Source: Undibacterium parvum (GTDB lineage: Bacteria > Pseudomonadota > Gammaproteobacteria > Burkholderiales > Burkholderiaceae_D). Taken from it: DNA of 64,000 bases. The notes beneath the pieces were generated by a model, which was not told the origin of the DNA, ran no database searches, and was given only the letters and a program-made list of their open reading frames with translations. Location of the stretch: NCBI RefSeq assembly GCF_003955735.1, contig NZ_CP034464.1, positions 2,294,001 to 2,358,000 on the forward strand. The letters are read 5' to 3'. The first letter of the stretch is position 1; each line of letters begins with the position of its first letter. Shown here in pieces: positions 709 through 55,711 of the stretch. Position numbers and translations under genes: made by a program.

Positions 709-715
709 GGATACT

Positions 716-17326: not shown

Positions 17327-17459
17327 CAATCAGCCGCCAGATCAGTGCGCGCAGATGCTGTGCGCACTGCTTGACTCCTTGCCATAAAATTTTACAGCTG
17401 CGTGCGCAAACTCCTCAGGCATGGTCAAATACGGGCTTGATCATTTTTAGTATGCCAAC

Positions 17460-18008
17460 ATGACAGAGCCAGCGCACACCCCTTCCACCTTAAGTTACCG
17501 ATTAGCCGTCGCCGATGATGCCGCCGCGATCGCGCGTCTGGTCAACAGCGCCTATCGGGGCGACTCTAGCCGTCAGGGCTGGACTACCGAAGCCGATTTA
17601 TTAGAAGGCGATCGTATCAACGCCGATCAGGTACGTGAGCTGATACTGGCGGACGAATCCCTGATTTTGCTATGCCAGCAAAATCAGCAGCCAGAATTAT
17701 CTGGCTGCGTGCATTTGCAAAAAACTGAAAACGCCGCGTATCTGGGCATGTTCGTGGTCAAGCCCACCCAACAAGGCAGCGGCATAGGCAAGCAATTCAT
17801 GCGAGAGGCCGAGACGCTGGCGCAGCACAGCTGGCAGGTGCAGACCATCTGGATGACCGTGATCACGCTCAGGCATGAGTTAATCGCCTATTACGGACGG
17901 CGCGGCTACCAGCGTACCGGGCAATTTAAACCCTTCCCTAGCGAGATCAGCAAAGAAGTCATGCTGGTCCCCGATTTGCATTTTGAGGTGCTGGAAAAAC
18001 GCCTGTAA
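17460..18008 (+). CDS. GNAT family N-acetyltransferase
   Basis: A 182-residue acetyltransferase with the acetyl-CoA-binding motif A QQGSGIGKQFM (around residues 104-114) preceded by strand LGMFVVKP, and a C-terminal YYGRRGYQRTGQFKPFP segment. The first 50 residues (LAVADDAAAIARLVNSAYRG) are the usual GNAT N-terminal strand and helix. The acceptor cannot be inferred. Single gene, convergent with the glycosylase gene downstream. Confidence 0.82.
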   Translation: MTEPAHTPSTLSYRLAVADDAAAIARLVNSAYRGDSSRQGWTTEADLLEGDRINADQVRELILADESLILLCQQNQQPELSGCVHLQKTENAAYLGMFVVKPTQQGSGIGKQFMREAETLAQHSWQVQTIWMTVITLRHELIAYYGRRGYQRTGQFKPFPSEISKEVMLVPDLHFEVLEKRL

Positions 18009-18084
18009 GCAATTTTTGTAAGTGCGGCAACGCCCAGTTTGATGAAAAAATTGGGGCGGCTGTGCCAGCAATGTATCCGGCCGC

Positions 18085-18672
18085 TTAGCCGGCCTTGGCG
18101 AGTACTTGCGCGACCCTGCTTTGCAACACCGGTATCAGCTCTTGCTCAAACCATGGATTGCGCTTGAGCCATAGATTATTCCTTGGACTTGGATGTGGCA
18201 GGGGCAAGCTGTGCGGCCAATGCTGGCGCCAGGCCTGTACCAGTTCAGTGACCGACTGTGCAGAATCGGGGAAGTGATAGGCCTGCGCGTATTGCCCTAT
18301 TACTAGCGTCAGCTCTACTTTTTTAAGCTGCGCCAGCAAGAGGCTACGCCAGGTCGGCGCACATTCTGGGCGCGGCGGCAGATCGCCTGATTTACCAGTG
18401 CCGGGGAAGCAAAATCCCATAGGCAGGATGGCAATTTTCCGGGCATCATAAAAAACCTCACGCGTGATCCCCAGCCAAGCACGCAGGCGCTCGCCACTGG
18501 CATCATCGAAGGGTATGCCGCTGGCGTGCACCTTACTGCCAGGTGCCTGACCAGCGATCAGGATACGCGCGGACGGATGCAGCTGTAGCACCGGGCGCGG
18601 CCCCAAGGGCAGCTGCGCCGCACACAGCGTGCAAGCACGAACGTCTGTCAGCAAACCAGTCAGGCTAGGCAT
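18085..18672 (-). CDS. Uracil-DNA glycosylase family protein
   Basis: A 195-residue UDG-superfamily protein. Visible are the pair CxxC (ACTLCAAQLP) near the N-terminus, the motif-1 region LIAGQAPGSKVHASGIPFDD, ILPMGFCFPG and the motif-2 region LPLPHPSPRNNLW. It lacks the extra iron-sulphur cysteines of family 4/5 enzymes, and belongs to the short uracil-DNA-glycosylase-like group whose substrate is not well established. A DNA-repair role is family inference. The gene borders the accessory region that starts just downstream of position 18700 on the plus strand. Confidence 0.8.
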   Translation of the reverse strand: MPSLTGLLTDVRACTLCAAQLPLGPRPVLQLHPSARILIAGQAPGSKVHASGIPFDDASGERLRAWLGITREVFYDARKIAILPMGFCFPGTGKSGDLPPRPECAPTWRSLLLAQLKKVELTLVIGQYAQAYHFPDSAQSVTELVQAWRQHWPHSLPLPHPSPRNNLWLKRNPWFEQELIPVLQSRVAQVLAKAG

Positions 18673-18740
18673 AGCAGACCTCAGTAAGGGGTAAATTAAG
18701 CCTGGCCAGGCGCCCGGCTAGCATCAAAGATAAATAGCGC

Positions 18741-18878
18741 GAAGGGTGGGCACAGCAGCATCGTGCCCACGCCTAAGGCTCAAGCAACAACACATCAGTT
18801 TAAGCCCATCAAACCAAAATCTCCATGCATAGCTGTAGGTTCATCTCCGCGTGGGCACAAAAACTTGCTCACCCTACC
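18741..18878 (-). repeat. Family A inverted-repeat element (copy 1)
   Basis: About 138 bp with ends GGTAGGGTG and CACCCTT and an inner repeat GTGCCCACGC/GCGTGGGCAC. Read on the minus strand it begins about 20 bp after the stop codon of the 108-residue gene. Better copies at 25232-25369 and 53012-53148 show full terminal inverted repeats, GTAGGGTGGGCA/TGCCCACCCTAC. Relative to the adjacent gene the orientation is the same in every copy. Confidence 0.75.
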
Positions 18879-18897
18879 TGGCTTTTTTTCCTTGAAG

Positions 18898-19224
18898 TCA
18901 TTTTGTGAGCCCGTACTTCTGCCGCAGGTTTAGAAAGTGGTGCCCGAGAATTTGTCTCTTTGCGACCTCAATGACGATCACGACAAATGCGTCTGGTACA
19001 TCAGTGCTGATAAGAACGTGCTGCCATGCATTCGAGCTATTCCGATAGACGTACGCGACATTCCAGTCTTGTGTGTCTCGCCCCGAAAATTCGCTGGACA
19101 GAACCGCTTCCGTGTACTCCCATATGTCCACGATCTCTTCAGCGGACTTTGTGACGTCTTGCATTGGAGGAGAGAACGTTTTGAGGAACCGTTCTTCCAG
19201 CATTGGTCGAAGCTGGATTGCCAT
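18898..19224 (-). CDS. Cassette-borne protein of unknown function
   Basis: A 108-residue protein (MAIQLRPMLEERFLKTFSPP...) with no family I recognise. The core, EYTEAVLSSEFSGRDTQDWNVAYVYRNSSNAW followed by DAFVVIVIEV, suggests an alpha/beta fold; there is no signal peptide. Its start codon lies 4 bp beyond the GTTAGA core of leader copy 1, the position expected for the first cassette of an integron-like array. A family A repeat follows its stop codon. Confidence 0.55.
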   Translation of the reverse strand: MAIQLRPMLEERFLKTFSPPMQDVTKSAEEIVDIWEYTEAVLSSEFSGRDTQDWNVAYVYRNSSNAWQHVLISTDVPDAFVVIVIEVAKRQILGHHFLNLRQKYGLTK

Positions 19225-19228
19225 GACT

Positions 19229-19480
19229 TCTAACTAGATATGTCCGTCACCGTTACGGGCGAAACGGACGGATGTCGCATAAAAATTTAAGAGCAAGCTC
19301 TCAAAACCAAGTCCAGCTTGGCTTTCCGTCGATCTACTGTAAATGCGATTAGCACTAAAAAATCGTCAAAGCGTCATTGCTGTTGTCTTTCATTTTACCA
19401 ACAATATTGACATATTTGAAATCAATTTCAGGTTTTTATTGCCCAGAATGCTAGCCCGCGTACGGTGGTGTTAGCCTCAC
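19229..19480 (-). promoter_or_regulatory. Leader copy 1: promoter, hairpin and GTTAGA core
   Basis: Read on the minus strand: a TGAAATTGATTTCA palindrome, a -35 box TTCAAA (19415-19420), 17 bp, and a -10 box TAAAAT (19392-19397). A transcribed leader follows, containing TTTTGAGAGCTTGCTCTTAAA (about 19285-19305) and a hairpin with arms GTCCGT and ACGGAC (19242-19269), ending in CTAGTTAGA at 19229. The same sequence occurs at 52290-52510 and diverges only after GTTAGA, as expected for an insertion point. Promoter activity is inferred from the boxes. Confidence 0.65.
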
Positions 19481-19601
19481 CCGTAATCCAGCATAGAGTC
19501 ATTCCAAGCGGCGCAATAGATGCAGCCGATTGCGCGCTGTCTGCTTAGTTAGTGGCGCCTGTGCGCCTCCTGGGCCTCGTGTCTGGCTCGGACTGCCTAA
19601 A

Positions 19602-19684
19602 CATACTCCCCCTAGTGTTTTTTGAGTGCCCAATACGTATATGCGCCAACCGCTAGATTCGACTTCAAAAATCGGGGAGTATCT
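19602..19684 (-). repeat. Family C element (copy 1), ATACTCCCC inverted repeat
   Basis: An 83 bp element with ends CATACTCCCC and GGGGAGTATC around a TATATGCGCC core. It lies upstream of leader copy 1. Copies at 22031-22112 and 27058-27139 are in the same orientation; copies at 52126-52208 and 55148-55231 are inverted, matching the reversed leaders there. This could be a miniature transposable element or a fixed part of the leader. Confidence 0.75.
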
Positions 19685-19781
19685 GTTTTTCTGTGCGGTG
19701 CTAACTCCTTTGCAGGTGTTTTTCTTGCATTATTGGCACGCAGAACAGTAATTGGCGTTTTCAGCAGACATACACAGTTGC

Positions 19782-19804
19782 AATTGCGAATCATTCGCAT
19801 TAAA
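19782..19804. promoter_or_regulatory. Fur-box-like operator upstream of the TonB-dependent receptor
   Basis: AATTGCGAATCATTCGCATTA resembles the palindromic Fur consensus (GATAATGATAATCATTATC) in the arrangement TGCGAATcATTCGCA. It lies about 90 bp before the GTG start of the receptor gene. Repression by iron-loaded Fur is the inference. Confidence 0.6.
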
Positions 19805-19891
19805 ATGCGGCTTTAGCCAGCTAAGCCAGAGCGCTCATCCGCTACCCTTCAGACCGCCAGCCACCATTTCTTGATATAAAAAGGAAGTATT

Positions 19892-21964
19892 GTGGCAATT
19901 CGAAAGACTCCATTAGCGCTCTTGGTCGCGCTGGCGATTCAACAATTCATTCATCCGGCACACGCACAATCGAACTTGCCCTTAGACGGCCAGTCCAAGG
20001 TGCCAGCTGTCCAGAATGCAGCAGCCGAAAACCTAGGCCAACGGCCACTCGCGGCTAGCACGAATGTAGCGCATATTGCTGAGCTACCGACAGTGCAAGT
20101 GCAAGCGCAAACGCCCAGCCAAGATGATGTGGTAGTGCGTAGCGTGCTGCAAGCCAGCCAGGCACGTGATTTACATGATGTGTTTCGCAATGATGCAGAA
20201 ATCAGCATCGGTGGGGGCGCTAGCCCAGTGACGCAAAAAATGTATGTGCGGGGTTTAGAAGAAGCGCTGCTCAATGTCTCGGTGGATGGTGCCACGCAAA
20301 ATAACCATCTGTATCACCATCAAAGCGCACTGTTGATCGATCCAGCCTTAATTAAGCGTGTTGAAATTGAAAAAGGCACGGCTGCAGCGAGTGCCGGCCC
20401 TGGTGCTTTAGGTGGCGCGATGCGGGTCTTGACCGTCGATGCCGCTGATCTATTGCAAGAAGGTCAGAACATCTCGGCTATTTTGAGTGCTAGCGTAATG
20501 AGTAACGATGGCTTGAAAACCGGTGCAACTGTGGCGGCGCGCTTTGCCAAGGTGGATGCCTTATTCTCCGCCAGCCATCTGGATCTGGCGGATTACAAAA
20601 ACGGTAATGGCGTGAAAGAGCAGAACTCAGGCTCTGAGCAGCACAATCTCTTATTTAAATTGGGCCTGAGCTTGGCCGAAAATCAGCGTCTTTCTCTTAA
20701 TCATCAATCGAATGAAGATAAAGGCGTGCGTTATTTACGCGCCAATATGGTGGGGTTTAAACATCCGGTATTGCCGAATGAGGCCATGCCACAAAGTCTG
20801 CTGCGCACTACCAGCAGCCTCAAATATGAGGGCAAAGGAGTCGGCCCGGTGAGCGCTATCGAGAGCACCCTGTATCAATCCAAGGTAGAAGGTGATCGTA
20901 CCGATCAGCGCGGTAACTATAGTGGCGAAGCGATTACCACCCAGGGCTTGGATCTAGGCTTAAAAAACGCCATCGGCGATCACTATCTTAAATACGGTGT
21001 GAATTTACGTAAAGAAAACTCACAAACCAATCAAATCCGCGACCCTTATGGGAATACCGGCAGTGGCAAAGAAGAAAACAAAATTGCCGGTGTTTATGTG
21101 GAAGCGCTACTCGACTTTGGCAGAATAAATGTATCGAGTGGGCTGCGTTACGATCACTACGATTACACGGATAATCATCAGCAAAATTTTAAAAGCGATG
21201 GCGTCTCGCCAAGCGCAGGCCTGAACTTGCAGGTGAGCGAGAGCCTATTACTGAAAGCCGGCTATGCGCAGGCCTTACGCGGTGCGGGGCTCAATGAAGC
21301 CTTTTTACTCGACATGATCGATTGGAAAAACGCCCCGAAACTGGAAGCAGAAAAAGCCAGCATCTCAGAAATCGGCTTTGTCTTTACCCAGCAAGGCTTT
21401 AAGTTCAGCGGAAATTTATTCAAACAGCGCATCAACAACTTCATTGATGTCGCTGAATGCAGTGCCGACGCGGATTGCCGGACTAATGTGGGCGATGCCA
21501 GCATCACCGGTTACGAGTTGCGGACCGAATATCGACTCGGCAGCCTGCGTCTTGGTGCCTCGGTTGCCAAGAGTAATTCAGATCGCGATGGTCGCGCATT
21601 TAATGATGGTGATCAGGGATTAGGCACCAGCTATGGCCGCAGCTGGACTACCTATGCAACTTACGATATACCTGCCTATGCCCTACAGTTGGGTTGGCAA
21701 GGGCGCTTTGTTGAGGCGCTCGATTATCAACCGGTAGCCAGCAATGCCACGCTAACCAAAGCCGGTTATGGGGTGAACGACGTGTATGTCAACTTCTTAC
21801 CGTTCAAGAAAGACACACTCAGCTTGCGACTATCGGTGAAAAATATCTTTGATCAACAGTATTACGATCAAGCCACCTTTGCCTACCATGGTCGCTTGAA
21901 AAAAGTACTCGGCCATCCGGAGGCGGGCCGTGATGTACGGCTCGAAGTCAGTTATAAATTCTAA
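19892..21964 (+). CDS. TonB-dependent outer-membrane receptor, probably iron or haem uptake
   Basis: A 690-residue receptor with a GTG start behind AAGGAAG and a signal peptide ending AHPAHA-like (residues 1-25). The plug domain spans about 70-200 (VRGLEEALLNVSVDGATQNN, then VEIEKGTAAASAGPGALGGA), followed by a beta-barrel ending in the typical C-terminal Phe (LEVSYKF). LPTVQVQAQ near residue 70 is a TonB-box-like stretch. The plug resembles siderophore or haem receptors; the ligand cannot be read, and no haem FRAP/NPNL signature was seen. The Fur-box-like palindrome upstream supports iron regulation. No periplasmic binding protein or ABC genes lie nearby. It is flanked by direct copies of the family C element. 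Confidence 0.88.
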   Translation: MAIRKTPLALLVALAIQQFIHPAHAQSNLPLDGQSKVPAVQNAAAENLGQRPLAASTNVAHIAELPTVQVQAQTPSQDDVVVRSVLQASQARDLHDVFRNDAEISIGGGASPVTQKMYVRGLEEALLNVSVDGATQNNHLYHHQSALLIDPALIKRVEIEKGTAAASAGPGALGGAMRVLTVDAADLLQEGQNISAILSASVMSNDGLKTGATVAARFAKVDALFSASHLDLADYKNGNGVKEQNSGSEQHNLLFKLGLSLAENQRLSLNHQSNEDKGVRYLRANMVGFKHPVLPNEAMPQSLLRTTSSLKYEGKGVGPVSAIESTLYQSKVEGDRTDQRGNYSGEAITTQGLDLGLKNAIGDHYLKYGVNLRKENSQTNQIRDPYGNTGSGKEENKIAGVYVEALLDFGRINVSSGLRYDHYDYTDNHQQNFKSDGVSPSAGLNLQVSESLLLKAGYAQALRGAGLNEAFLLDMIDWKNAPKLEAEKASISEIGFVFTQQGFKFSGNLFKQRINNFIDVAECSADADCRTNVGDASITGYELRTEYRLGSLRLGASVAKSNSDRDGRAFNDGDQGLGTSYGRSWTTYATYDIPAYALQLGWQGRFVEALDYQPVASNATLTKAGYGVNDVYVNFLPFKKDTLSLRLSVKNIFDQQYYDQATFAYHGRLKKVLGHPEAGRDVRLEVSYKF

Positions 21965-22306
21965 GCTAGGACTTAGATAAAATTGTCCTCAGCGTATCCT
22001 TGGCTTCGTGCCTGGCCTAGGATGCTTAAGCATACTCCCCCTAGTTTTTTTTAAATACCCAATGGCTATATGCGCCAACCGCTAGGTTTGATTTTAAAAA
22101 TCGGGGAGTATGTGATTTTATGGGGGTATCTATGTGTGACGACCGTACTCCAAATCGGTAGGGCGCTAGGGGTTTGATCTATTTCAGCCTATGGAATCTC
22201 AAAACAAGTACTCTGCCGCAGGTATATCCTTTACGACTCACTGCCGGGATCAGCGCATACCAGATGTGTGAAGGCGGAGGTTGTGCGAACCAGCTTTCGC
22301 GAACAG
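21965..22306. other. Gene-free stretch holding a family C element
   Basis: A 342 bp gap between the receptor stop codon and the GrpB-family gene stop codon. It contains family C copy 2 and, next to the GrpB-gene stop, TAACTGTTCGCGAAAGCTGG (minus strand), which may be the start of a decayed attC-like site. No open reading frame with a ribosome-binding site was seen. Confidence 0.45.
22031..22112 (-). repeat. Family C element (copy 2)
   Basis: An 82 bp element CATACTCCCC...GGGGAGTATG, most similar to copy 1 (shared TATATGCGCCAACCGCTAG). The 30 bp before it (GGCTTCGTGCCTGGCC) also resembles the sequence before copy 1, so the repeated unit is about 110 bp. No leader promoter follows this copy. 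It lies 67 bp after the receptor gene and marks the distal end of the minus-strand array. Confidence 0.75.
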
Positions 22307-22798
22307 TTACGCGGTATTCCTGTAAGCGGCCAGTGTTGCGGAAATAAACTCTGACTTGGCGCGGCGATACAGCTCAGAACCGAGGCCCACAGAATTAAGT
22401 TTGACTTGGTTGTACTGCGCCAGCAATTCAGGTTTAGCCCGCAATAGCGTGCGAAAAACCAGGAAGAGTTCTTCGAATTGAGATCCGCTTGCCACCACTT
22501 GGACAGCATGTTCATTTTCTGTATGCTGGCACTCCAACATGCATAGTTCCCCGGTGCGTAAAGTGTCCATCTTCTCGGTGTAAGCATGTCGCTTAAGCGT
22601 TTGCACAACTTGTTCTAAGCATGCCCCGTCTACGATCATGCAAACGTCGAGGTCCGCCTTGGAAATAGCCCCCGGAACTGAAGAAGAACCTATATGTTCC
22701 AGCTTGGCAAATGGAATAATTAGCTGAAGACTAGTGGCGACACGCGCGTAGCGTTGCGCCAATTCTGGCTGATAAGTTGCTGACGAATGTAATTTCAT
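22307..22798 (-). CDS. GrpB/UPF0157 family nucleotidyltransferase-like protein
   Basis: A 163-residue protein with HIGSSSVPGAISKADLDVCMIV (residues 36-57), the GSSSVPG and DLD signature of GrpB (UPF0157), a nucleotidyltransferase-fold family often fused to or encoded near CoA or acetyltransferase genes. The catalytic reaction is unknown. It is the last gene of the minus-strand array. Upstream, CCACAACTCAAATGCTAGTGCC resembles the 3' end of an attC-like site seen again at 53184-53202. Confidence 0.75.
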   Translation of the reverse strand: MKLHSSATYQPELAQRYARVATSLQLIIPFAKLEHIGSSSVPGAISKADLDVCMIVDGACLEQVVQTLKRHAYTEKMDTLRTGELCMLECQHTENEHAVQVVASGSQFEELFLVFRTLLRAKPELLAQYNQVKLNSVGLGSELYRRAKSEFISATLAAYRNTA

Positions 22799-22892
22799 GG
22801 CACTAGCATTTGAGTTGTGGGGTCACCATAGCGGCGAAGTCGCGTAGCGAGTGCTTAGCGCACAATATCTGACACGAAGCCATACTTTTTGA

Positions 22893-23025
22893 GACGGGTC
22901 GGCACAGCAGCATCGTGCCCACGCTAAGGCGCAAGCAAGCACACCTCAGCTTAAGCGCATCAAAGCAAAACGGCCATGCATAGCGGTCGGTTCATCTTTG
23001 CCTCGGCACCAATACGTGCTCACCT
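22893..23025 (-). repeat. Family A inverted-repeat element (copy 2, degraded)
   Basis: Same layout as copy 1 (GTGCCCACGC, CATGCATAGCGGTCGGTTCATC) but with decayed ends. On the minus strand it begins directly at the stop codon of the helix-hairpin-helix gene (GAGCCAGGTGAGCACG). Confidence 0.65.
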
Positions 23026-23028
23026 GGC

Positions 23029-23295
23029 TCATCTATTTGTGGTGTTGCCGTCGGTTACCGCCAATGCTGCGCTGATGGCGGCCTCCACCGCAGCTTTCGC
23101 CTGCGGGCTATTCTTCCAACAAGAGGAGCCGCTTAGCTTCGCACCTTGAGCAAGGATGTCTCGCGCATCTGCGTCGGCCAACTGGCGAAGGGTAGAGAAC
23201 CCCATTTGTTCAAGGCGCTCGATGAGCTTTGGCCCGACGCCCTTAACGCGCAGAAGCGCACTTTTTTCAAGCTGAGAGAACGGCACAACACTCAT
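23029..23295 (-). CDS. Small helix-hairpin-helix protein
   Basis: An 88-residue protein with VKGVGPKLIERLEQMGFSTLRQLADADARDIL (residues 18-49), a helix-hairpin-helix motif like those in pathogenicity-locus/TfoX C-terminal proteins and DNA polymerase or ligase tails. The remainder (WKNSPQAKAAVEAAISAAL) is helical. Such proteins may bind DNA non-specifically, but the role is unknown. It is preceded by an attC-like site (23305-23376) with the expected spacing to the start codon, so it behaves as a gene cassette. Confidence 0.65.
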   Translation of the reverse strand: MSVVPFSQLEKSALLRVKGVGPKLIERLEQMGFSTLRQLADADARDILAQGAKLSGSSCWKNSPQAKAAVEAAISAALAVTDGNTTNR

Positions 23296-23304
23296 CTTTT
23301 TGCC

Positions 23305-23376
23305 TTTTAACGTTCAAGGACAGGGGCGCTGCGCGGTGCCTTATCGCGCAGCGTCTCCTGCACCGGAGGGTTGAGC
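23305..23376 (-). other. attC-like recombination site
   Basis: A 72 bp site on the minus strand. It starts with GCTCAAC, matching RYYYAAC, and ends with CGTTAAAA, close to GTTRRRY (last base off). The inner arms CAGGAGACGCTGCGCG and CGCGCAGCGCCCCTG fold as an imperfect stem with an unpaired stretch, as attC sites do. It sits between two small genes on the same strand, ending 10 bp before the next start codon. Simple terminators lack the two terminal core boxes. Confidence 0.65.
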
Positions 23377-23408
23377 TCGCGATAGAGCAGCATAGAACAT
23401 GACAAGAA

Positions 23409-23822
23409 CTATGGCTCAAGACCGAGGACTTTTTTCATTTCGTCTGTGAAAGTATCAAAGCGACGACGCATTGGCTGACGTTTATCTGGTGTGCCGGAAT
23501 CGATTGTTTTTTCATTTGGGTCGTAGGCGATGCTGATGTGTGGGCCTCGTTGCTTCCCTTCGTAGATATCGGACTCGATGATATTCTTCTTGGTATCGAA
23601 TGTGGCGACAATCTTAAAACCCATTGCTGGTGGGCCAACAAGGACACCACCGATGCCATCAGCACCAAGGTAGAGCGCCTGACCTTCAAAGAGATATGGA
23701 CCTTCCAAGACCGAGCCGTCTGTCGCCCATACTCCAACGAGGTGAGGCGGTATGGCGTCCGCTGCATTAGTAGACGTTGCTGCCAAGACGAGTAATGTGA
23801 ATATAAAGAATAGTTTGGACAT
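23409..23822 (-). CDS. Cassette-borne exported protein of unknown function
   Basis: A 137-residue protein with a signal peptide (MSKLFFIFTLLVLAATSTNA, cleavage near residue 20). The mature part has short repeats of aromatic/glycine turns (VGVWATDGSVLEGPYLFEGQ, YLGADGIGGVLVGPPAMGFK), which suggest a small beta-barrel in the periplasm. I know no family. attC-like sites lie on both sides (23305-23376 and 23872-23956), the expected arrangement of a gene cassette. Confidence 0.6.
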   Translation of the reverse strand: MSKLFFIFTLLVLAATSTNAADAIPPHLVGVWATDGSVLEGPYLFEGQALYLGADGIGGVLVGPPAMGFKIVATFDTKKNIIESDIYEGKQRGPHISIAYDPNEKTIDSGTPDKRQPMRRRFDTFTDEMKKVLGLEP

Positions 23823-23871
23823 AGGATCCTTGGCGATGACGCTACGATTTCAGTACGCTGATACAAGTCGA

Positions 23872-23956
23872 GCCCCAACGAATAGCGTTTATCCGCCGCA
23901 CCGGAACGCAAAAATAAGATCCGCGGACTGCTTGCGGCGGATAAAGCTTGTTGGAC
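23872..23956 (-). other. attC-like recombination site with perfect inner stem
   Basis: An 85 bp site on the minus strand. It starts with GTCCAAC (fits RYYYAAC) and ends with CGTTGGGGC (core GTTGGG). The inner arms TTTATCCGCCGCA and TGCGGCGGATAAA are perfect 13 bp complements, with extra bases at the base of the stem. It ends 50 bp before the exported-protein gene. This is the clearest attC-like site in the window. Confidence 0.7.
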
Positions 23957-24048
23957 TGAACCGCCTGTGTGGCGGTCACACTGGGGATTGTAAGCGATGC
24001 GTTCGGAGTATTGCTAGTAATTTGACATGTAGTCGCGGCGCTTCAGGT

Positions 24049-24112
24049 GCGCCAAGTGCGTGGTGTATTTGGCGTAGCCGTAATCACCATTTACTCGTCC
24101 CATGCGCCCTTG
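24049..24112 (-). repeat. Family B element (copy 1)
   Basis: GTGTATTTGGCGTAGCCGTAATCACCAT then CATGCG: an inverted repeat with arms GGTGATTACGGCTACGCC, related to copies at 25169-25229 and 25968-26030. Elements of the form GGTGTATTACGGCTACGCCTAATACACC are widespread in proteobacteria. Confidence 0.55.
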
Positions 24113-24117
24113 GCATG

Positions 24118-24513
24118 CTACTTGGCTTTTGCATGAAGATCGGCATAAGCAAGGCCGAGGCCAAGCGACCAATCCATTTTGGAGTTTTCTATCAAGGTGA
24201 TCATGATGTCGTCTGCCCGAAAGCCCGCCAGGCTCGCTTGTTCGGCAACGTGACGAAATAAGGCACGTTTTTGATCGTCAGTGCGTCCAAGCAGAAAAAC
24301 CACCTCAATCACGCAAGCATCTTTTGAACGATTAACGCCGCCAAAATGAGGATCAAGAATAATCTCGTCGGTGTCGAAACGCGTTATCAATTGAAACAGA
24401 TCCTTGGGCGGGACATTGCAAGTCTTTACCAGCCCATCTTGAACCGCTGCGGCTAAGGCTTGCACTTGGCTTGAGGAGAGGTGGCGCGGAGCGGAAATTT
24501 TAGTCAGTGGCAT
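24118..24513 (-). CDS. Tautomerase family protein
   Basis: A 131-residue protein. I chose the ATG at 24513 because it yields MPLTKIS..., placing the catalytic Pro directly after the initiator Met as in 4-oxalocrotonate tautomerase/MIF proteins, and because AGAGAGATCACG precedes it; a longer frame would bury the Pro. Two beta-alpha-beta units (APRHLSSSQVQALAAAVQDGL and ACVIEVVFLLGRTDDQKRAL) fit the long tautomerase type. Substrate unknown. No attC-like site is found immediately on either side, only family A and B repeats, so it may be a chromosomal gene trapped in the array. Confidence 0.75.
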   Translation of the reverse strand: MPLTKISAPRHLSSSQVQALAAAVQDGLVKTCNVPPKDLFQLITRFDTDEIILDPHFGGVNRSKDACVIEVVFLLGRTDDQKRALFRHVAEQASLAGFRADDIMITLIENSKMDWSLGLGLAYADLHAKAK

Positions 24514-24534
24514 CGTGATCTCTCTTAATAGTGC

Positions 24535-24673
24535 GTAGGGTGGGAACAGCATCATCGTGCCCACGCGTAAGGTTCAAACAACAACACATCCGCTTAAACC
24601 CATCCAGGCAAAACGGCCATGCATCAAGGTAGGTGCATCTCCGCGTGGGCGCAAAAACCTGCCCACTCTAGCA
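24535..24673 (-). repeat. Family A inverted-repeat element (copy 3)
   Basis: A 139 bp copy with ends CGTAGGGTGGGAA and CCCACTCTAGC, inner arms GTGCCCACGCG/CGCGTGGGC. On the minus strand it starts about 15 bp after the stop codon of the VOC-family gene and ends about 20 bp before the tautomerase start codon. Confidence 0.75.
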
Positions 24674-24686
24674 GCCTGAAAAGATC

Positions 24687-25091
24687 TCAATCCGCCTTGT
24701 TTTTGTCGTCCCACGGCATAGGCTGCCACAGTTCTAGTTTATTGCCCTCGGGGTCCATGATCCATGCGAACTTGCCGTTTTCGTGCGACTCTGGCCCCTT
24801 CAAAATCTCGGTGCCAGCGGCCTGCAGTTGCTTCAACATCTCATCGAGATCATCGACCCGATAGTTGATCATGAAGCTAGCGTCGCTGGGGCTGAACCAT
24901 GCGCTGTCCTGGCTCGCCACATGCCAGACGGTCAGACCCTGATCTTCGGCGCGATCTTCTGGCCATTTGAGGATGCAGCCACCGAAGTCTTCCAGCACCA
25001 TACCCAAGTGCTGTTGATACCACGCCGCCAGCGCCGCGTTATCGGCGCGACTCTTGAAAAAAACACCGCCTATGCCTGTTACTTTCGCCAT
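24687..25091 (-). CDS. VOC (glyoxalase/bleomycin-resistance) family protein
   Basis: A 134-residue protein with the two beta-alpha-beta-beta-beta modules of the vicinal-oxygen-chelate fold: FFKSRADNAALAAWYQQHLGM (residues 12-32) and VDDLDEMLKQLQAAGTEILKGP, ending NGKFAWIMDPEGNKLELWQP with the metal-ligand Glu in KLELWQ. Function could be a lyase or resistance protein; the substrate cannot be inferred. A sound ribosome-binding region precedes the ATG (CCGGAGACTAGC). Confidence 0.8.
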   Translation of the reverse strand: MAKVTGIGGVFFKSRADNAALAAWYQQHLGMVLEDFGGCILKWPEDRAEDQGLTVWHVASQDSAWFSPSDASFMINYRVDDLDEMLKQLQAAGTEILKGPESHENGKFAWIMDPEGNKLELWQPMPWDDKNKAD

Positions 25092-25168
25092 GCTAGTCTC
25101 CGGTTTGTTAAGCTGAATTATCTTGCGGACAGCATTTGATGTTACACCAAAATCCCAAAGCTACAGAC

Positions 25169-25229
25169 CGCGTAGGGTGTATTAGGCGTAGCCGAAATAC
25201 ACCATTTTCATCCCATGCGGCGCAATAGT
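25169..25229 (-). repeat. Family B element (copy 2)
   Basis: CGTAGGGTGTATTAGGCGTAGCCGAAATACACC followed by CATGCGGCGCAATAG. It adjoins family A copy 4 with no gap, giving one composite repeat block of about 200 bp. Confidence 0.6.
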
Positions 25230-25231
25230 GC

Positions 25232-25369
25232 GTAGGGTGGGCACAGCATCATCGTGCCCACGCCTAAGGCTCAAGCAACAACACATCAGCTTAAGCCGAT
25301 CCAGGCGAAACAGCCAAGCATAGCGGTCGGTTCATCTCCGCGTGGGCACAAAAACCTGCCCACCCTACC
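25232..25369 (-). repeat. Family A inverted-repeat element (copy 4, well preserved)
   Basis: A 138 bp copy with perfect ends GTAGGGTGGGCA and TGCCCACCCTAC and inner arms GTGCCCACGC and GCGTGGGCAC. On the minus strand it starts about 20 bp after the stop codon of the nuclease-like gene, after ACATAACCTGGGACT, which looks like the opening box of an attC-like site. Confidence 0.8.
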
Positions 25370-25388
25370 AGACTGATATAGTCCCAGG

Positions 25389-25886
25389 TTATGTAATTTT
25401 TTCATCTTTTGCATTACCAAAAAAACCGAAATCGAAATAATGCTTTTTATCTTTTGCTAAACATATACCGATTTTTCCTTCTGCACATTGGGCTAGCGGA
25501 ATTGTATTTTTTCCATTCAATTCCTCCAATGAACCCCAATATATTGAAAATGTAAATTGGTCGAATTGAATTGCCATCCAATGCGGTTCTGCGCAGTATT
25601 CCTGGGTTGCCGTTGCCGCTTTTTTGTATGCGTCATTTCCGAGATTATAAAAAGCGTTTAGCTTATGGTCTTTCTGGTATTTGTTTCTGGCTTTAACGCT
25701 AATGATGAATCTCTTTCCGTCTTTTTCTGCATATAAGTCTGCGAAAGGAAAGTTCATCTTTTTATCATTTAAGTTTATTATTTTTTCATAGTGATTATCG
25801 ACAAGTGCTTTAATTGCAAAAAGTTCGCCCAGTTCCCCAAGTGATTTTTTTCTTGATGCTTCCTTTTTATTTTCTTCATTGCTCAT
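25389..25886 (-). CDS. Possible PD-(D/E)XK nuclease-fold protein, AT-rich cassette gene
   Basis: A 165-residue protein. GELGELFAIKALVDNHYE (residues 17-34), PFADLYA with Asp50 and RFIISVKARNKYQ with Lys65 follow the alpha-E, beta-D, beta-xVK order of the PD-(D/E)XK nuclease fold, although the residue two before Lys is Ser rather than Glu/Asp. Base composition is clearly more AT-rich than the flanking genes, a sign of transfer. The hairpin plus GACATAAC sequence at 25916-25943 precedes it. It could be a nuclease, a defence component or an inactive homologue. Confidence 0.5.
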   Translation of the reverse strand: MSNEENKKEASRKKSLGELGELFAIKALVDNHYEKIINLNDKKMNFPFADLYAEKDGKRFIISVKARNKYQKDHKLNAFYNLGNDAYKKAATATQEYCAEPHWMAIQFDQFTFSIYWGSLEELNGKNTIPLAQCAEGKIGICLAKDKKHYFDFGFFGNAKDEKIT

Positions 25887-25915
25887 GATGGAATATTAGT
25901 CACATAATTAGTTAT

Positions 25916-25943
25916 GTCCGCCACCCTGACGGGCGAAACGGAC
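25916..25943 (-). promoter_or_regulatory. Leader-type hairpin (third copy)
   Basis: On the minus strand, GTCCGTTTCGCCCGTCAGGG continues to GGCGGAC and then ATAACTAATTATG. This matches the hairpins of leader copies 1 and 3 (19242-19269, 52470-52497) including the preceding TTTATGCGACAT. Here no promoter copy lies upstream; a family B repeat replaces it. It suggests that the hairpin is a module able to move separately, or that this was once a leader. Confidence 0.6.
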
Positions 25944-25967
25944 GTATGTCGCATAAACAATTTAAGC

Positions 25968-26030
25968 GCGTAGAGTGTATTAGGCGTAGCCGTAATACAC
26001 CATTTTTCATTTCATCCGGCGCAATAGATG
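25968..26030 (-). repeat. Family B element (copy 3)
   Basis: CGTAGAGTGTATTAGGCGTAGCCGTAATACACC followed by TTCATCCGGCGCAATAG, near identical to copy 2. It lies between the leader-type hairpin and a half copy of family A. Confidence 0.6.
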
Positions 26031-26050
26031 AAGCTTGTTGCGCCCGCGTG

Positions 26051-26096
26051 CTGTCGGTTGACCTCTGCGTGGGCACAAAAACGTGTCCACCCTACC
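26051..26096 (-). repeat. Family A element (copy 5, half)
   Basis: Only the gene-proximal half remains: GGTAGGGTGGACACG...TGTGCCCACGCAGAGG on the minus strand. It interrupts an attC-like site whose 5' portion (26130-26136 GCCTAAC and following GCTGACGTGCCCCGGCAAGCC) is intact. Confidence 0.6.
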
Positions 26097-26136
26097 TGGC
26101 TTGCCGGGGCACGTCAGCTCTATGGAAGGGTTAGGC
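26097..26136 (-). other. Left half of an attC-like site
   Basis: On the minus strand GCCTAAC (fits RYYYAAC) includes the TAA stop codon of the preceding gene, as is usual in gene cassettes, followed by CCTTCCATAGAGCTGACGTG and CCCCGGCAAGCC. The matching right half is absent, replaced by the half family A copy. Confidence 0.55.
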
Positions 26137-26733
26137 GTCACTCCTCGAAACAGCACTGCGAATCTCGGAAAGGTGTCCGCTGATATTCTCCAGTTGTTCG
26201 ACGATTGGATCGACTGGTTTAGCGGACTTCCTGAACGGCTGAAGATCGATCGTCGTTGACTCGACAACTCGGTTGTCTTGGTATTCGTACTCCGCTTGGA
26301 CCGTGAACTGCTGGGGGCAGCGCTCTGAGTCTCTGAAGATGTTGTGGCCCACGCCCAAGTAAAAGACCATCTCGGCTTGCGGTGAAAGGGACTGGATCGG
26401 GTGGACAAATGTCGTGTACTTTCTGAGATTGTCATCTTCGTCAGGATGAGCGTTGAAGTAGAAGTCCTTGTCTAGACTCAGCCGGAGATTTTTAGCGGAC
26501 GATCCGCCTGCATTTTTTATCGACAGCATGAGCATGGTACTCATAGCCCGGACGACAGGTGTCACCTGAATGTACGGGCGAGTGGAGGCGTCGAGTTGTG
26601 CCTTCATGACAGCGACGGTTTCGCGGTTCGCCTTGACCATCTGATAGGTAACGATCGCTACGAAGAGCGAGATGGCCGCCGAACAACCGCCGGTGATTGC
26701 GACAGCTAGATTGATCTTATCTGCGAGGTTCAT
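26131..26733 (-). CDS. Membrane-anchored cassette-borne protein of unknown function
   Basis: A 200-residue protein with one N-terminal membrane helix (INLAVAITGGCSAAISLFVAIVTY, residues 7-30), a short helix (MVKANRETVAVMKAQLDA), and a beta-rich domain with STRPYIQVTPVVRAMSTMLM and IKNAGGSSAKNLRLSL, similar to many small membrane-anchored immunoglobulin-like proteins of unknown function. It is the first gene behind leader copy 2; GCGTTAAGC (26749-26757 region, core GTTAAGC fits GTTRRRY) lies 16 bp before its ATG, and its stop codon lies inside an attC-like box. Confidence 0.6.
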   Translation of the reverse strand: MNLADKINLAVAITGGCSAAISLFVAIVTYQMVKANRETVAVMKAQLDASTRPYIQVTPVVRAMSTMLMLSIKNAGGSSAKNLRLSLDKDFYFNAHPDEDDNLRKYTTFVHPIQSLSPQAEMVFYLGVGHNIFRDSERCPQQFTVQAEYEYQDNRVVESTTIDLQPFRKSAKPVDPIVEQLENISGHLSEIRSAVSRSDA

Positions 26734-26748
26734 GGGGGTTTTCTGACG

Positions 26749-26755
26749 CTTAACG
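26749..26755 (-). other. Integron-type core box GTTAAGC before the first gene
   Basis: On the minus strand ATAACGCGTTAAGCGTCAG; GTTAAGC fits the GTTRRRY core exactly and lies 16 bp before the start codon of the membrane-anchored protein. It is the equivalent of GTTAGA in leaders 1 and 3. Confidence 0.5.
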
Positions 26756-26869
26756 CGTTATAAATTTTCATTTTACAAAATTATCCGGCTATCAAAAATG
26801 CGGACACCGGGAGGGGTTTCTGCGCACAGCCTTTTACCGCTTATTTTTTCGCTGCTCTACTGAATGAAT

Positions 26870-26990
26870 GCGCGGTTTAAATAAATCGATAAAAGCGGCA
26901 TCGCTATTGTCTTGCATTCTATCAATAAACTTAACATATTTGAAATTAATTTCAATATTTCATTGTCCCGCATACTAGCCTTAGCTGCCT
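26870..26990 (-). promoter_or_regulatory. Leader copy 2: divergent promoter copy
   Basis: On the minus strand: GGCTAGTATGCGGGACAATG, TTGAAATTAATTTCAA palindrome, -35 TTCAAA (26939-26944), 17 bp, -10 TAGAAT (26916-26921), then GCAAGACAATAGCGATGCCGC. The promoter block matches the other three leaders, but the downstream part has diverged and lacks the hairpin. It should drive the minus-strand array. Confidence 0.6.
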
Positions 26991-27057
26991 GACGTTTGCT
27001 TTACTAGCAGTAGCAACTGCCGACCTTCCGGTTCGCGCCTGGCTTGGACTTTATGAA

Positions 27058-27139
27058 CATACTCCCCTAGTGTTTTTTGAATGCGCAATGGATATATGCG
27101 CGAATAGCTGCATTCGCTTATAAAAATAGGGGAGTATCT
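27058..27139 (-). repeat. Family C element (copy 3)
   Basis: An 82 bp element CATACTCCCC...AGGGGAGTATC with the TATATGCGC core, preceded by GGTTCGCGCCTGGCTTGGAC as in copies 1 and 2. It lies about 70 bp upstream of leader copy 2 and bounds the minus-strand array together with copy 2 at 22031. Confidence 0.75.
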
Positions 27140-27373
27140 GTTTTGGGCGGATATTTTATCGTAGCGATGAAGCCGCTAACTCAGGCCGAAGCGTACGCCA
27201 CCGCTAGGTGAAATTTTGCAGCGCTGGGCTGGTCGCTTTGTGCGTGCGCGGGCTGGCATACAGACTGGCTCACAGAACTTTTATCGCCACTTCCGGTCTA
27301 GTTAATGCTTAGGCAAGCAGGCAGGCAGGCAAGCTTGCTAGCATCTATTTATTCCTCAAACAGAAAGAGCCGC

Positions 27374-27931
27374 ATGAGCATACTGAGCAGCGCAAGACTA
27401 CGTCTGGTACCGATGAACGATAGCCATTTTGATGGTCTGTTCGCGATGAATAGCGACCCCGCCGTGATGCGCTATATCACTGGCAAGCCAGATACGCCGG
27501 CCGATACGCAGGCGATGATAGAGCGGGTCAAGGCGCGCTGGTTAGATTGTGGTTATTCGTGGTGGAGTTTTTTTGAGCTGGACAGCGAGCAAATTATCGG
27601 CGCCGGTTGCATCCAGCATCTGGGGCGCGATGCTGCCAATCCGCTAGAAATTGGCTGGCGTTTGCGCCAGGATAAATGGGGGCAGGGCTATGCCTCCGAA
27701 GCGGCCGAGTGCATGGCCAGCTTCGCCTTCGACACGCTGAAAACCGATCTGCTGTGCGCGGTTTGTCAGCCAGAAAATCTAGGCTCAGCCCACGTCATGA
27801 AAAAACTCGGCATGCACTACAAGGGCCTGGAACGTTGGTATGAGATGGAGGTCGCGGTGTATCAAATGACAGGCAGCGATTGGGCGAGCCGTGCACAAGC
27901 TGAGTGCGTAGGTCCGATTAGCGCAGCGTAA
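27374..27931 (+). CDS. GNAT acetyltransferase, RimJ/RimL-like
   Basis: A 185-residue protein; the ATG at 27374 (MSILSSARLRLVPM) is preferred over an upstream frame start that lacks a ribosome-binding site and is encoded by a GGCA-repeat. Visible are RLRLVPMNDSHFDGLF, the acetyl-CoA motif KWGQGYASEAAE and NLGSAHVMKKLGMHYKG, all typical of RimJ/RimL-type acetyltransferases. The final seven or so codons (GPISAA) lie inside an inverted repeat (27907-27980), so the natural C-terminus may have been altered by the element. Confidence 0.8.
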   Translation: MSILSSARLRLVPMNDSHFDGLFAMNSDPAVMRYITGKPDTPADTQAMIERVKARWLDCGYSWWSFFELDSEQIIGAGCIQHLGRDAANPLEIGWRLRQDKWGQGYASEAAECMASFAFDTLKTDLLCAVCQPENLGSAHVMKKLGMHYKGLERWYEMEVAVYQMTGSDWASRAQAECVGPISAA

Positions 27932-27980
27932 TCGGGCGGTACAGACATGCGTGCGATTACGCTGCGCTAATCGCACCTAC
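27907..27980. repeat. GATTAGCGCAGCGTAATC inverted repeat overlapping a gene end
   Basis: Arms GTAGGTCCGATTAGCGCAGC.. and ..GCTGCGCTAATCGCACCTAC form a near-perfect 26 bp inverted repeat around an 18 bp centre. It resembles the family B type elements (GTAGGGTG...TACGCTACGC) but with a different arm sequence. Its left arm supplies the last codons and stop of the acetyltransferase gene. Confidence 0.7.
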
Positions 27981-28002
27981 AGTACTAGCAGCTCACAAGA
28001 AA

Positions 28003-28113
28003 AAGCTTTGCCGCAGAGTACGCAAAGGAAAAAACCAAGGTTTTCTCTGCGTACTCTGCGCCTCTGCGGCGAGAAAAGTTTTTGTTTTTAGGTTTTTAGA
28101 AGTTCCCTTTTTA
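28003..28113. repeat. CGCAGAG hairpin followed by a half family D end
   Basis: GCCGCAGAGTACGCAAAGG faces CTCTGCGTACTCTGCGCC and CTCTGCGGCG, a hairpin of the same style as 3413-3486. It is followed by GGTTTTTAGAAGTTCCC (28090-28107), exactly one end of the family D element at 32136-32268. Between here and the aspartate kinase gene there is also a GCTAGCTG tandem at about 28156-28183. Confidence 0.5.
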
Positions 28114-28235
28114 TTTTCAAGCTTAGTGCGGATTGACCCTGGACTAGCGCTGCAGTAAGCTAGCTGGCTAGCTGGCTAGCTGTCGGGTGTATTTGCCCAA
28201 GCGTCCTACTCACTCGCTCTACTCTGGAAACCGTA

Positions 28236-29639
28236 ATGAAAAAAATCGTCGTCAAATTTGGTGGTTCTAACCTGCGCCGGCCGCAGGATATCGACCGCAT
28301 CGTGAACGTGGTGCAAACCTATAAGCGGCCTCTGGTGCTGGTGGTGTCGGCGTTTTTTGGGGTGACTAATGAGTTGGTGGCTTGCGTTCAGGCTGCCAAA
28401 GAAGGTGCTGGCACCGCAGCGGCGCTGGCTGAGAGTCAGAGCTATACGCTGGCCTTGCGCGCCCTCAAGAAACAGATCGTCGCCGCGAATATCAGCGACC
28501 CTGCGCAGCGCGCCCGTACCGAGGCGGCGCTGGCGGTGCGGCTCGATCAGCTGGATCGCTATTTAACCGGCATCCATTGTATCGGTGCGGTACCTAGCTT
28601 TGTCAACGATGCCATCCTCAGTTATGGCGAGCGGCTGTCTAGCTTGCTACTCACCGAGGTCTTGCAGAGTCGTGGCATCGCGGCGCGCGAAGCCTTGCCG
28701 GAAGAGATAGGTTTGATCACCGATGGTGTGTTCGGCAATGCCGCTTGCGATTTCGAGCTGAGCGCCGCCAAGGTCGCCAAGGCTTTGGCCGGTGATGGCG
28801 TGATCGTGGTGCCTGGTTTTTATGGCGTCGATCAGAACGGTAAGACCACCTTGTTCGGGCGCGGCGGTTCGGATTATTCGGCTGCCTCGATCGCCGCTTG
28901 TCTGGGGGCCGAATCTCTGGACGTCTGGAAAGATGTGGATGGTTTCCTCAGCGCCGATCCGGGTACGGTGAGTGCGCCGCGTTCTATCGCCCAATTAAAT
29001 TATCTGGAGGCGGCTGAGCTCTCGTATTTTGGCGCCAAAATTTTACATCCGCGTACGGTCGAGCCGCTGTTTGATCGCGATATTCCTATCCGCATCCTCA
29101 ACATCACGCGCCCTGAGCGCGGCTTACAGCCTTACACCATCATCGATGACCAGCGCCGCGTCACGCACGATGTGGTGAAAAGCGTGACCTCGACCGAAGA
29201 CGTGGCGATACTCAAGTTGCATGGCCCCGGGGTCGGCTTTAAGCCCGGCATTCTGGCGCAAGTAACCAATACCCTGGATCAGCACGGCATCAACATCAAG
29301 AGCGTGCTGACGGCACAAACGGCGATCAATCTGTTGGTGGCGCGCGATCAGCTCGATGCGGCTTATGCGGCATTGGTAGAGCATCATCTGGCTGGCGTGG
29401 TGGAAGTGAGCCGCAATGCCGCAGTGGCGATTGTGGCGGTGGTAGGCGATGGGGTGTTGGATGCCTCGGACGTAGGCAGTGCGATAGCCAGCCGCGCCTT
29501 GTCCGCCGCCTTAGCCGGCGGTGTACGAGTCTGCCTGGCAGCAGCCGGTGCCAGTGAAGTAGCTGCGTATATGCTGGTGCATGAAGAGGATAGAAAACTG
29601 GCCTTGCAAGCGGTGCATGCGGAGTTTTTTGGGGCTTAG
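28236..29639 (+). CDS. Aspartate kinase
   Basis: A 467-residue enzyme for ATP-dependent phosphorylation of aspartate, first step to Lys, Thr, Met and diaminopimelate. KFGGSNL (residues 7-13), the FVNDAILSYGERLSSLLL and GRGGSDYSAASIAACLGAE motifs, and KILHPRTVEPL are the kinase-domain hallmarks. The C-terminal 140 residues hold two ACT domains (VAILKLHGPGVGFKPGILAQ and the following VAIVAVVGDGV). The N-terminus (MKKIVVKFGGSNLRRPQDI) and length match the longer class seen as second aspartokinase in many proteobacteria, so another copy probably exists elsewhere. Whether it is feedback-inhibited is unknown. Confidence 0.9.
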   Translation: MKKIVVKFGGSNLRRPQDIDRIVNVVQTYKRPLVLVVSAFFGVTNELVACVQAAKEGAGTAAALAESQSYTLALRALKKQIVAANISDPAQRARTEAALAVRLDQLDRYLTGIHCIGAVPSFVNDAILSYGERLSSLLLTEVLQSRGIAAREALPEEIGLITDGVFGNAACDFELSAAKVAKALAGDGVIVVPGFYGVDQNGKTTLFGRGGSDYSAASIAACLGAESLDVWKDVDGFLSADPGTVSAPRSIAQLNYLEAAELSYFGAKILHPRTVEPLFDRDIPIRILNITRPERGLQPYTIIDDQRRVTHDVVKSVTSTEDVAILKLHGPGVGFKPGILAQVTNTLDQHGINIKSVLTAQTAINLLVARDQLDAAYAALVEHHLAGVVEVSRNAAVAIVAVVGDGVLDASDVGSAIASRALSAALAGGVRVCLAAAGASEVAAYMLVHEEDRKLALQAVHAEFFGA

Positions 29640-29710
29640 TTGTGATGGTCTGGCACCGCTTGCAAGCGGCGCCAGACCCTGATTGTGAAGGGTTCTAGGT
29701 CTAAGGAATA

Positions 29711-52078: not shown

Positions 52079-52125
52079 GCCGCAGCAAGCGCCACCCGCA
52101 TCAGGCTGCAAAAAATCCGCAAAAA

Positions 52126-52510: not shown

Positions 52511-52520
52511 GAACCAATAC

Positions 52521-55705: not shown

Positions 55706-55711
55706 TATGTC

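Follow-up and report, generated by a model that had tools for sequence, protein, structure and literature searches.

Here we describe a region of the Undibacterium parvum chromosome in which small, unrelated genes stand behind repeated leader segments, in the manner of an integron cassette array. The window, the whole stretch of 64,000 nucleotides that was analysed, is G000:C1:2294001-2358000 of a genome assembled as one contig (G000, 4.91 Mb, 97.95% completeness). Coordinates without a prefix are window positions, G numbers denote genomes and L numbers extracted loci; the comparison samples were 43 genomes of the genus, including G000 itself, and 392 genomes of the family. We propose, with a probability of roughly 84%, that the region is a relic chromosomal integron without an integrase, of the type called a cluster of attC sites lacking integron integrase (CALIN), in which an integrase-less platform of cassette promoter (Pc) and attI site was amplified.

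The first array (18.7-27.1 kb) contains two leaders, with one small gene behind leader 1 and seven behind leader 2, all on the minus strand. A preliminary description of the sequence had taken this for one continuous array; a plus-strand gene for a 690-residue TonB-dependent receptor (19892-21964) in fact splits it. The small minus-strand genes reported behind the leaders were borne out, as was the promoter block common to both (19368-19456 against 26892-26980, 79% over 89 nt). The leader is indeed repeated, in more copies than had been described, since further arrays lie at 52.1-56.9 kb of the window and at 1.84 Mb; the attI end of leader 2, for its part, is diverged. The three arrays together span about 21 kb, or 0.4% of the genome. 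Pfam assigned four of the eight small genes (GrpB, HHH_5, Tautomerase_2, Glyoxalase) and gave no family for the other four, which upholds the earlier GrpB, helix-hairpin-helix, tautomerase and vicinal oxygen chelate (VOC) labels and leaves the nuclease-like one unconfirmed.

In the lists below, R1 is a covariance model built from 22 attC sites of other genus genomes, fold z scores the folding of the single strand against shuffled sequences, and D1 is a 150-bp repeat resembling repetitive extragenic palindromic (REP) elements, which starts GTAGGGTGGGCAC and has two inverted palindromic halves. The first array, in the direction of its genes, comprises:

27058-27141, minus strand: dispersed inverted-repeat block upstream of leader 2, of a family found elsewhere in the genome
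26878-26980, minus strand: Pc-like promoter part of leader 2 (repeat D7), 84.6% identical to the reference copy over 26878-26968
26748-26877, minus strand: diverged attI-like end of leader 2, with GTTAAGC at 26748-26754 before the first gene
26131-26733, minus strand: cassette-like gene for a 200-aa protein without Pfam family, earlier labelled membrane-anchored
26095-26140, minus strand: 5' half-site of attC, truncated by a REP-like repeat; 82.6% identical to L229:7309-7354 of the same genome
26050-26101, minus strand: half D1
25905-25969, minus strand: partial attI (delta-attI-like tail) without promoter before the 165-aa gene, 89% identical to attI, with A instead of G before TT
25389-25886, minus strand: 165-aa protein, earlier labelled nuclease-like
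25227-25374, minus strand: D1 as separator
24687-25091, minus strand: VOC/glyoxalase-family protein (PF00903)
24530-24677, minus strand: D1 as separator
24118-24513, minus strand: tautomerase (PF14552)
23873-23956, minus strand: attC-like site by structure only (motif scanner; fold z -4.8; not called by R1)
23409-23822, minus strand: 137-aa protein between two attC sites, earlier labelled exported
23305-23376, minus strand: attC site (R1 30.7 bits, genome-wide E 6.9e-4; fold z -3.9)
23029-23295, minus strand: helix-hairpin-helix protein (PF14520)
22896-23024, minus strand: D1
22803-22850, minus strand: attC fragment upstream of the GrpB gene, 79% identical to L109:3222-3269
22307-22798, minus strand: GrpB-family protein (Pfam)
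22030-22114, strand not assigned: solo inverted-repeat block, distal end of the leader-2 array
19892-21964, plus strand: TonB-dependent receptor, a non-cassette gene that interrupts the array (open reading frame list, Pfam)
19602-19686, minus strand: inverted-repeat block upstream of leader 1
19339-19448, minus strand: Pc-like promoter part of leader 1, 83.8% identical to the reference copy
19229-19308, minus strand: attI of leader 1, 96% identical to the reference; homology among copies ends at the G/TTAG crossover
18898-19224, minus strand: 108-aa protein, the lone gene behind leader 1
18740-18883, minus strand: D1 in place of the expected attC

The second array comprises:

52125-52513, plus strand: leader 3, with repeat block, Pc-like part and attI; the query copy for leader searches
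52521-52991, plus strand: 156-aa cassette-like protein
53000-53155, plus strand: D1 abutting attC
53151-53197, plus strand: attC site without its outer 5' bases (R1 20.8 bits, genome-wide E 0.25)
53209-53493, plus strand: 94-aa cassette-like open reading frame, read from the sequence
53488-53541, plus strand: weak attC site (R1 15.7 bits, genome-wide E 4.9)
53548-53952, plus strand: 134-aa cassette-like open reading frame, read from the sequence
55148-55467, plus strand: leader 4, with repeat block, Pc-like part and truncated attI
55708-55792, plus strand: attC-like site with altered crossover triplet (homology; fold z -1.95; not called by R1)
55794-56420, plus strand: 208-aa cassette-like protein
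56444-56514, plus strand: attC-type site (homology; fold z -1.9; not called by R1)

The third array (L096, G000:C1:1838000-1853000) has three leaders, one of them diverged, together with a partial attI and D1 repeats. It also contains a 710-aa gene, oversize for a typical cassette.

Complete or near-complete leader copies in the window occupy 19229-19686, 26748-27141 (diverged attI), 52125-52513 and 55148-55467 (truncated attI), and those of the 1.84-Mb array G000:1843440-1843780 and 1847711-1848097, with a diverged copy near 1840.8 kb. As a whole segment, leader 2 is 45-56% identical to 14 other copies; its promoter part is common to them and its attI end has diverged. The query 52125-52520 matched 14 places in its own genome, a count in which one is the query and four involve only the repeat block. 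Six of the 43 genus genomes matched, the own genome included, and G040 did so by the repeat block alone; with the promoter-attI part as query, six of the 392 family genomes matched, five from the same genus and one from another. A leader-like stretch with 67% identity and no clear GTT junction (L098:6912-7104, at G000:3904911) lies at 3.90 Mb, about 380 bp past a gene for a 439-aa tyrosine recombinase.

We compared 13 leader/attI copies from five genomes across the crossover. The input held 14 stretches, of which g1725 had no recognisable junction; w55, w27, g1840 and g3904 were excluded for a truncated or diverged attI end. Mean pairwise identity was 0.80 in the last 40 nt ahead of the cut, and at nucleotides +5 to +45 past the TTRRR cut it was 0.27, about random. 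The search motif for the junctions already determines most of the 12 positions directly preceding the cut, as well as the TT that follows; outside the motif, at -30 to -15, identity averages about 0.79. The base preceding the cut is G in 12 of the 13 copies and A in the tail at 25905. Agreement up to the crossover and none beyond it is the footprint of cassette insertion at attI, and the leader copies, alike up to TTRRR and random thereafter, carry it. The first cassettes differ behind the same leader in G031, G034, G035 and G134. Judged by their sequences, and by the relative G035, where the same leader abuts a broken intI, the leaders are cassette-promoter/attI platforms. A putative Pc in leader 3 (TTCAAA-17-TAAAAT, 52319-52347) agrees with the consensus at 9 of 12 positions, and a promoter scan of this leader found four promoter-like sites on both strands, versus 0.6 in shuffles. 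The promoter part also holds a palindrome, TTGAAATTAATTTCAA (e.g. 52308-52323), perfect in two leaders and near-perfect in others, which is possibly a candidate operator. Over 17000-29000, Rfam left the leader unmatched and gave two sub-threshold matches only, to eukaryotic families, at 27.9 and 22.4 kb.

Next, we examined the sites between the genes. A mechanical scanner for the RYYYAAC..GTTRRR motif plus a stem returned exactly 23305-23376 and 23873-23956 from the 64-kb window and no site from five crudely shuffled windows (two-base blocks). Both sites, as single strands, fold better than 200 of 200 shuffles. For R1, 13 of 19 forward pattern matches and nine further sites were used in training, six pattern matches being left out by eye (G000:4502141, G006:4059082, G012:271126, G016:C5:73433 and two of G019). 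Searched against the own genome, where 150 of 972 first-look candidates were scored, R1 gave seven matches at E up to 10, three of them inside the window; an unfiltered search of the window ranked the same three on top (E 9e-6, 0.0032 and 0.064) among 13 matches up to E 10. The preliminary description had proposed attC-like separators and named three sites for a covariance check. Of these, 23305-23376 passes R1; 56444-56514 and 23872-23956 do not, the former being supported by homology and the latter by structure. As separators, 23305-23376 and 23873-23956 hold, while several gaps contain D1 instead: two of the six gaps between leader-2 genes have an attC-like site and no D1 copy, and in each of the remaining four stands a whole or half D1, accompanied in two cases by an attC remnant.

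Several of these sites have counterparts in integron loci of other genomes. The stretch 23308-23370 matches L132:4949-5010, in another genome's attC array, at 80% (subject not called by R1), and the counterpart of the GrpB-side fragment, L109:3222-3269, lies inside an R1-called attC of an intI-bearing locus. The counterpart of the half site at 26095, L229:7309-7354 in the own genome, overlaps an R1-called attC at L229:7282-7350. In the second array, 53151-53199 matches L136:10436-10484 at 92%, an R1-called site on an intI-bearing contig; 53489-53542 matches L140:12027-12080 at 83%, a weak R1 site of an intI-bearing locus; 55698-55792 matches L106:8772-8866 at 81% (intI-bearing locus, subject not called by R1), and 55715-55787 matches the R1-called L140:10170-10242 at 77%. 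The last site, 56444-56508, matches two sites of the G004 attC array at 90% and 82%, the second a weak R1 site, and a sequence of G036 at 75% (loci L131 and L134). The 1.84-Mb array contributes one attC site with homologues on intI-bearing contigs, L096:4967-5050 matching L135, L136 and L137 at 81-88%. Overall, 7 of the 14 matches between the three arrays and integron loci of other genomes overlap R1-called attC sites. A control set of 149 kb yielded 34 matches, and none of them overlaps such a site; with weak and training sites included, the sites called at E up to 1 make up 1.94% of the subject bases. One of the 14, to L143, looks like coding sequence common beyond the array, and matches to the own-genome loci L229 and L230 were not counted. 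We conclude that the attI and attC homology of the arrays is real. The fold z of the stretch at 53144 is -1.9 (single-stranded DNA); with values from -4.8 to +0.55 across six sites, not all sites are good hairpins.

Elsewhere in the own genome, attC sites scoring up to 58.6 bits occur at L229:6794-7848 (about 333 kb) and L230:6469-7025 (about 228 kb), and the 228-kb locus also has a 31-bp attI end, some 430 bp ahead of an attC. G004 (L131) and G005 (L132) each have 20 distinct plus-strand R1 sites at E up to 1; these clusters, in genomes without an IntI above the cut-off, are big CALINs.

For the integron integrase we used the NCBIfam model TIGR02249, with its cut-off of 265 bits. The own genome has no match above this cut-off; the best reaches 81.8 bits, from one of two genes that we take to be xerC and xerD on their PF00589 scores and lengths. 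Twelve of the 43 genus genomes have a match above the cut-off, and the near-identical relative G015 has none. Ten kilobases ahead of the window, at L099, lies a recombinase fragment that was considered as a decayed IntI and rejected, just 38 residues matching; it adjoins an IS91-like transposase reading frame, recognised by eye. Of the two explanations offered in the preliminary description, maintenance by an integrase from another part of the genome is not supported, and the CALIN alternative is, by the attI and attC homology together with the lack of a match above the cut-off.

How the several leaders came about was approached through their phylogeny and their upstream joint. In a tree of eight own and seven other-genome copies, five own copies form one clade (support 1.00). 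Upstream of the leaders lies an inverted-repeat block, and six own copies have a homologous spacer between this block and the promoter, as seen in all 15 of their pairs (0 of 500 shuffles for each pair). The block was not found by BLAST in six leader loci of other genomes (L101, L102, L103, L105, L227, L236), a search that left out the intI-bearing leader locus L100. Spacer homology in six copies, with the block absent from the loci tested in other genomes, suggests that, most probably, the integrase-less upstream joint had a single origin and spread by copying. Among the clade members, the four whose attI end is intact have unrelated first cassettes that start exactly at the crossover. A common joint with different cassettes would call for either a trans-acting integrase afterwards, or copying of whole arrays followed by exact-site cassette removal; such removal would likewise need an integrase.

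The block itself, CATACTCCCC..GGGGAGTAT, does not belong to the promoter; it is a dispersed repeat, present in 15 of the 43 genus genomes. An element of about 78 bp, ATACTCCCC..GGGGAGTAT, occurs in 15 of the 43 genomes in up to 41 copies per genome (e.g. G002, G016), one of its ends frequently being ATACTGGGGGGAGTAT; the reversed-pattern control had zero occurrences. We rejected the CATACTCCCC block as a part of the integron itself, since 6 of its 17 distinct places are at leaders and it is present in 15 of 43 genomes. The idea that leader and block move as one unit was weakened, as blocks at different leaders have diverged more than the promoters. In addition, three solo blocks group with leader blocks, and two of these have no leader alongside.

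D1, next to attC, also divides the first array. Five copies or parts occur in 18.7-26.1 kb, and D1 abuts attC remnants at 26101 and 53151. An exact D1 half-pattern occurs 14 times in the genome. Two truncated attI tails ending at the core site lie within arrays beside a gene, one at 25905-25969 and a second at L096:9054-9133.

From these observations we propose the following history. Cassette genes would have been inserted behind the leader at the G/TTRRR point of attI by an integron integrase, a past event to which the junction footprint points. An ancestral platform may have lost intI and then gained the dispersed repeat block upstream; the integrase-less platform would have been copied to several places within the lineage, as the joint in six copies and the clade of five suggest, and copies with an intact attI end now have different first cassettes. 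No integrase remains, attC sites have been cut or replaced by REP-like repeats, and the arrays appear static. Transcription of the first genes from the promoters may persist, weak as the promoter evidence is. A more specific version of the later steps is offered tentatively, and we would not be surprised to see it fail: copies of the platform came to stand at five positions, grouped in three clusters, and a trans-acting integrase that has since been lost loaded different cassettes onto them. The joint common by descent, together with the unrelated cassettes that start at the crossover of the four intact copies, argues for this version, in which the integrase would have come from another integron or a plasmid; that source is as tentative as the loading itself.

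Several observations weigh against the amplified relic integron. The arrays are not seen to vary: these loci were found in one relative only, G015, whose three arrays are 99-100% identical to those described here and keep the same gene order. No significant intI remnant lies at the window leaders (w52 E 0.068, w19 E 0.19), and an intI match at g1847a (E 0.002) is on the wrong strand and distant from the leader. R1 is a custom model with hand-chosen sites and not the standard attC model of IntegronFinder. The 53151 and 53488 matches have genome-wide E values of 0.25 and 4.9, the latter site (53488-53541) folds no better than shuffles (z +0.55), and 23873-23956 and 56444-56514 are not called by R1 in window or genome. 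The own copies w27, g1840 and g3904 fall outside the five-copy clade. The g1840 spacer is not homologous in any of six pairs (44 to 297 of 500 shuffles reach its score), and the spacer as cut takes in about 30 nt of promoter part. The proposed Pc matches at just 9 of 12 positions, and the best match there is on the opposite strand.

A different origin would be several complete integrons, one per leader, each of which lost its own intI independently, without amplification of a platform. G035 offers an example of such a loss: its leader C148:977-1150 (plus strand) abuts an opposite-strand broken intI (30-975, minus strand) with one TGA, one TAG and one frame change, and is followed by two R1-called attC sites, L100:1645 (19.2 bits) and L100:2543 (27.7 bits). 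The same genome also holds two leaders in whose loci no intI was found, and faint similarity to the intI N-terminus is seen upstream of leaders in G134 (E 9e-8) and at one copy each in G034 (E 4e-4) and G035 (E 0.004). Independent losses, however, would not yield the joint common to six own leaders or the clade of five, and we regard this origin as unlikely, if well short of negligible. It is far less probable that dispersed REP-like repeats built a hot spot here and that the attC-like sites are chance hairpins or unrelated relics. Such a hot spot would account for the 6 of 14 exact D1 patterns that fall within the three arrays, and for the D1 copies that separate several genes; the attI footprint and the broken intI beside the same leader in G035 speak against it, and the attC homology to integron arrays of other genomes (7/14 vs 0/34) largely refutes it. 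Scarcely any weight falls to arrays that are still active and served by a recombinase elsewhere in the genome, an idea encouraged by the ten PF00589 matches in the genome, eight of them above the Pfam cut-off, and by the leader-like stretch after the 439-aa recombinase gene. No recombinase reaches the IntI cut-off, the 3.90-Mb one has no TIGR02249 match at E 0.001, and gene order is the same in G015.

The preliminary description had looked to gene-content variation among strains for a decision. Identical order in G015 means that no turnover is seen between it and the own genome; variation appears instead in the different first cassettes behind the same leader in other genomes. The 200-aa gene may be altered in G015, to judge from an 80%-identical protein in the database search. 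Around the 52-57 kb array G015 is 99-100% identical over the whole 16 kb compared, and adjacent blocks show 77-92% identity or no match over 250 bp (window 26899-30421 against L110; L096:11346-15001 against L112). The pattern looks as if blocks had been exchanged, and one break falls at leader 2.

The relic integron with amplified platforms can be placed among known systems. Like the sedentary chromosomal integrons of, for example, Vibrio and Xanthomonas, it is chromosomal and has unrelated small genes in one direction behind promoter and attI; unlike them it has no integrase, small arrays, several platforms and non-uniform attC sites. Of the features of a complete integron, attI with cassettes joined at G/TTRRR is present and intI beside attI is not. 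In the passage of PMC9024848 that defines it, a CALIN is a cluster of at least two attC sites with no integrase nearby. The array at 52.1-56.9 kb agrees with this definition by two R1 matches with homologous sites elsewhere and two homology-based sites; that at 18.7-27.1 kb has one R1 match, one structural site and two fragments. The likeness to such CALINs is that genes bear attC sites and that an integron integrase is absent both from their vicinity and from the genome; the difference is that these arrays keep the promoter/attI platform in several copies and that REP-like repeats cut or replace several attC sites. The truncated attI tails resemble the delta-attI-type cassettes of mobile integrons in lying within arrays beside cassette genes. 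The cassettes described in PMC12901181, however, have the attI copy placed downstream of their gene and belong to class 1 and 2 integrons that retain a working integrase, whereas here tails of 65-80 bp precede genes on an integrase-less chromosome and whole leaders are repeated too. D1 starts GTAGGGTG and has two inverted palindromic halves, like the GTAG-tagged REP and bacterial interspersed mosaic elements treated in part of PMC3733652; GTAG-tagged palindromes in inverted pairs were read in D1 by eye, and the assignment is by resemblance.

Thus, the system is of a known kind, a CALIN-type chromosomal integron, in an unusual form with several Pc-attI platforms. The usual picture of an integron is a single integrase with a single attI and a single array. 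Several integrase-less attI platforms in one lineage would, if true, mean that the docking site can spread apart from its integrase and be loaded in trans. The leaders also supply a family of attI sites with a defined junction, and the repeats that cut attC suggest one route to the freezing of an array. As stated in the part of PMC9024848 that deals with them, attI sites outside class 1 are poorly known. Among the titles and opening abstracts listed in a literature search, none describes repeated attI platforms without integrase, which is not proof of absence in print; papers naming both Undibacterium and integron concerned other subjects, judged by title.

Finally, we considered the genes and their surroundings. 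PADLOC gave no family for eight proteins. The GrpB protein is 46% identical over 156 residues to a GrpB in the G004 attC array. A search with the 200-aa protein found 44 proteins including the query; 41 come from contigs no longer than 10.6 kb, and a 48%-identical homologue occurs in a named genome, that of Pulveribacter suum. This sporadic spread fits a cassette and is no proof of one. For the aspartate kinase locus, 39 of 45 loci (those of at least 8 kb) were compared for 20 further proteins of the window, one of which, at 53211, was in the wrong frame and not counted. None gave a match at E 1e-8, so the site cannot be compared by this route. A neighbour resembling uracil-DNA glycosylases occurs in 7 of the 43 genomes (E 1e-30). 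A contig titled as a Spirochaetes metagenome-assembled genome (L177) carries an aspartate kinase 71% identical to that of the window, possibly through a binning error or transfer.

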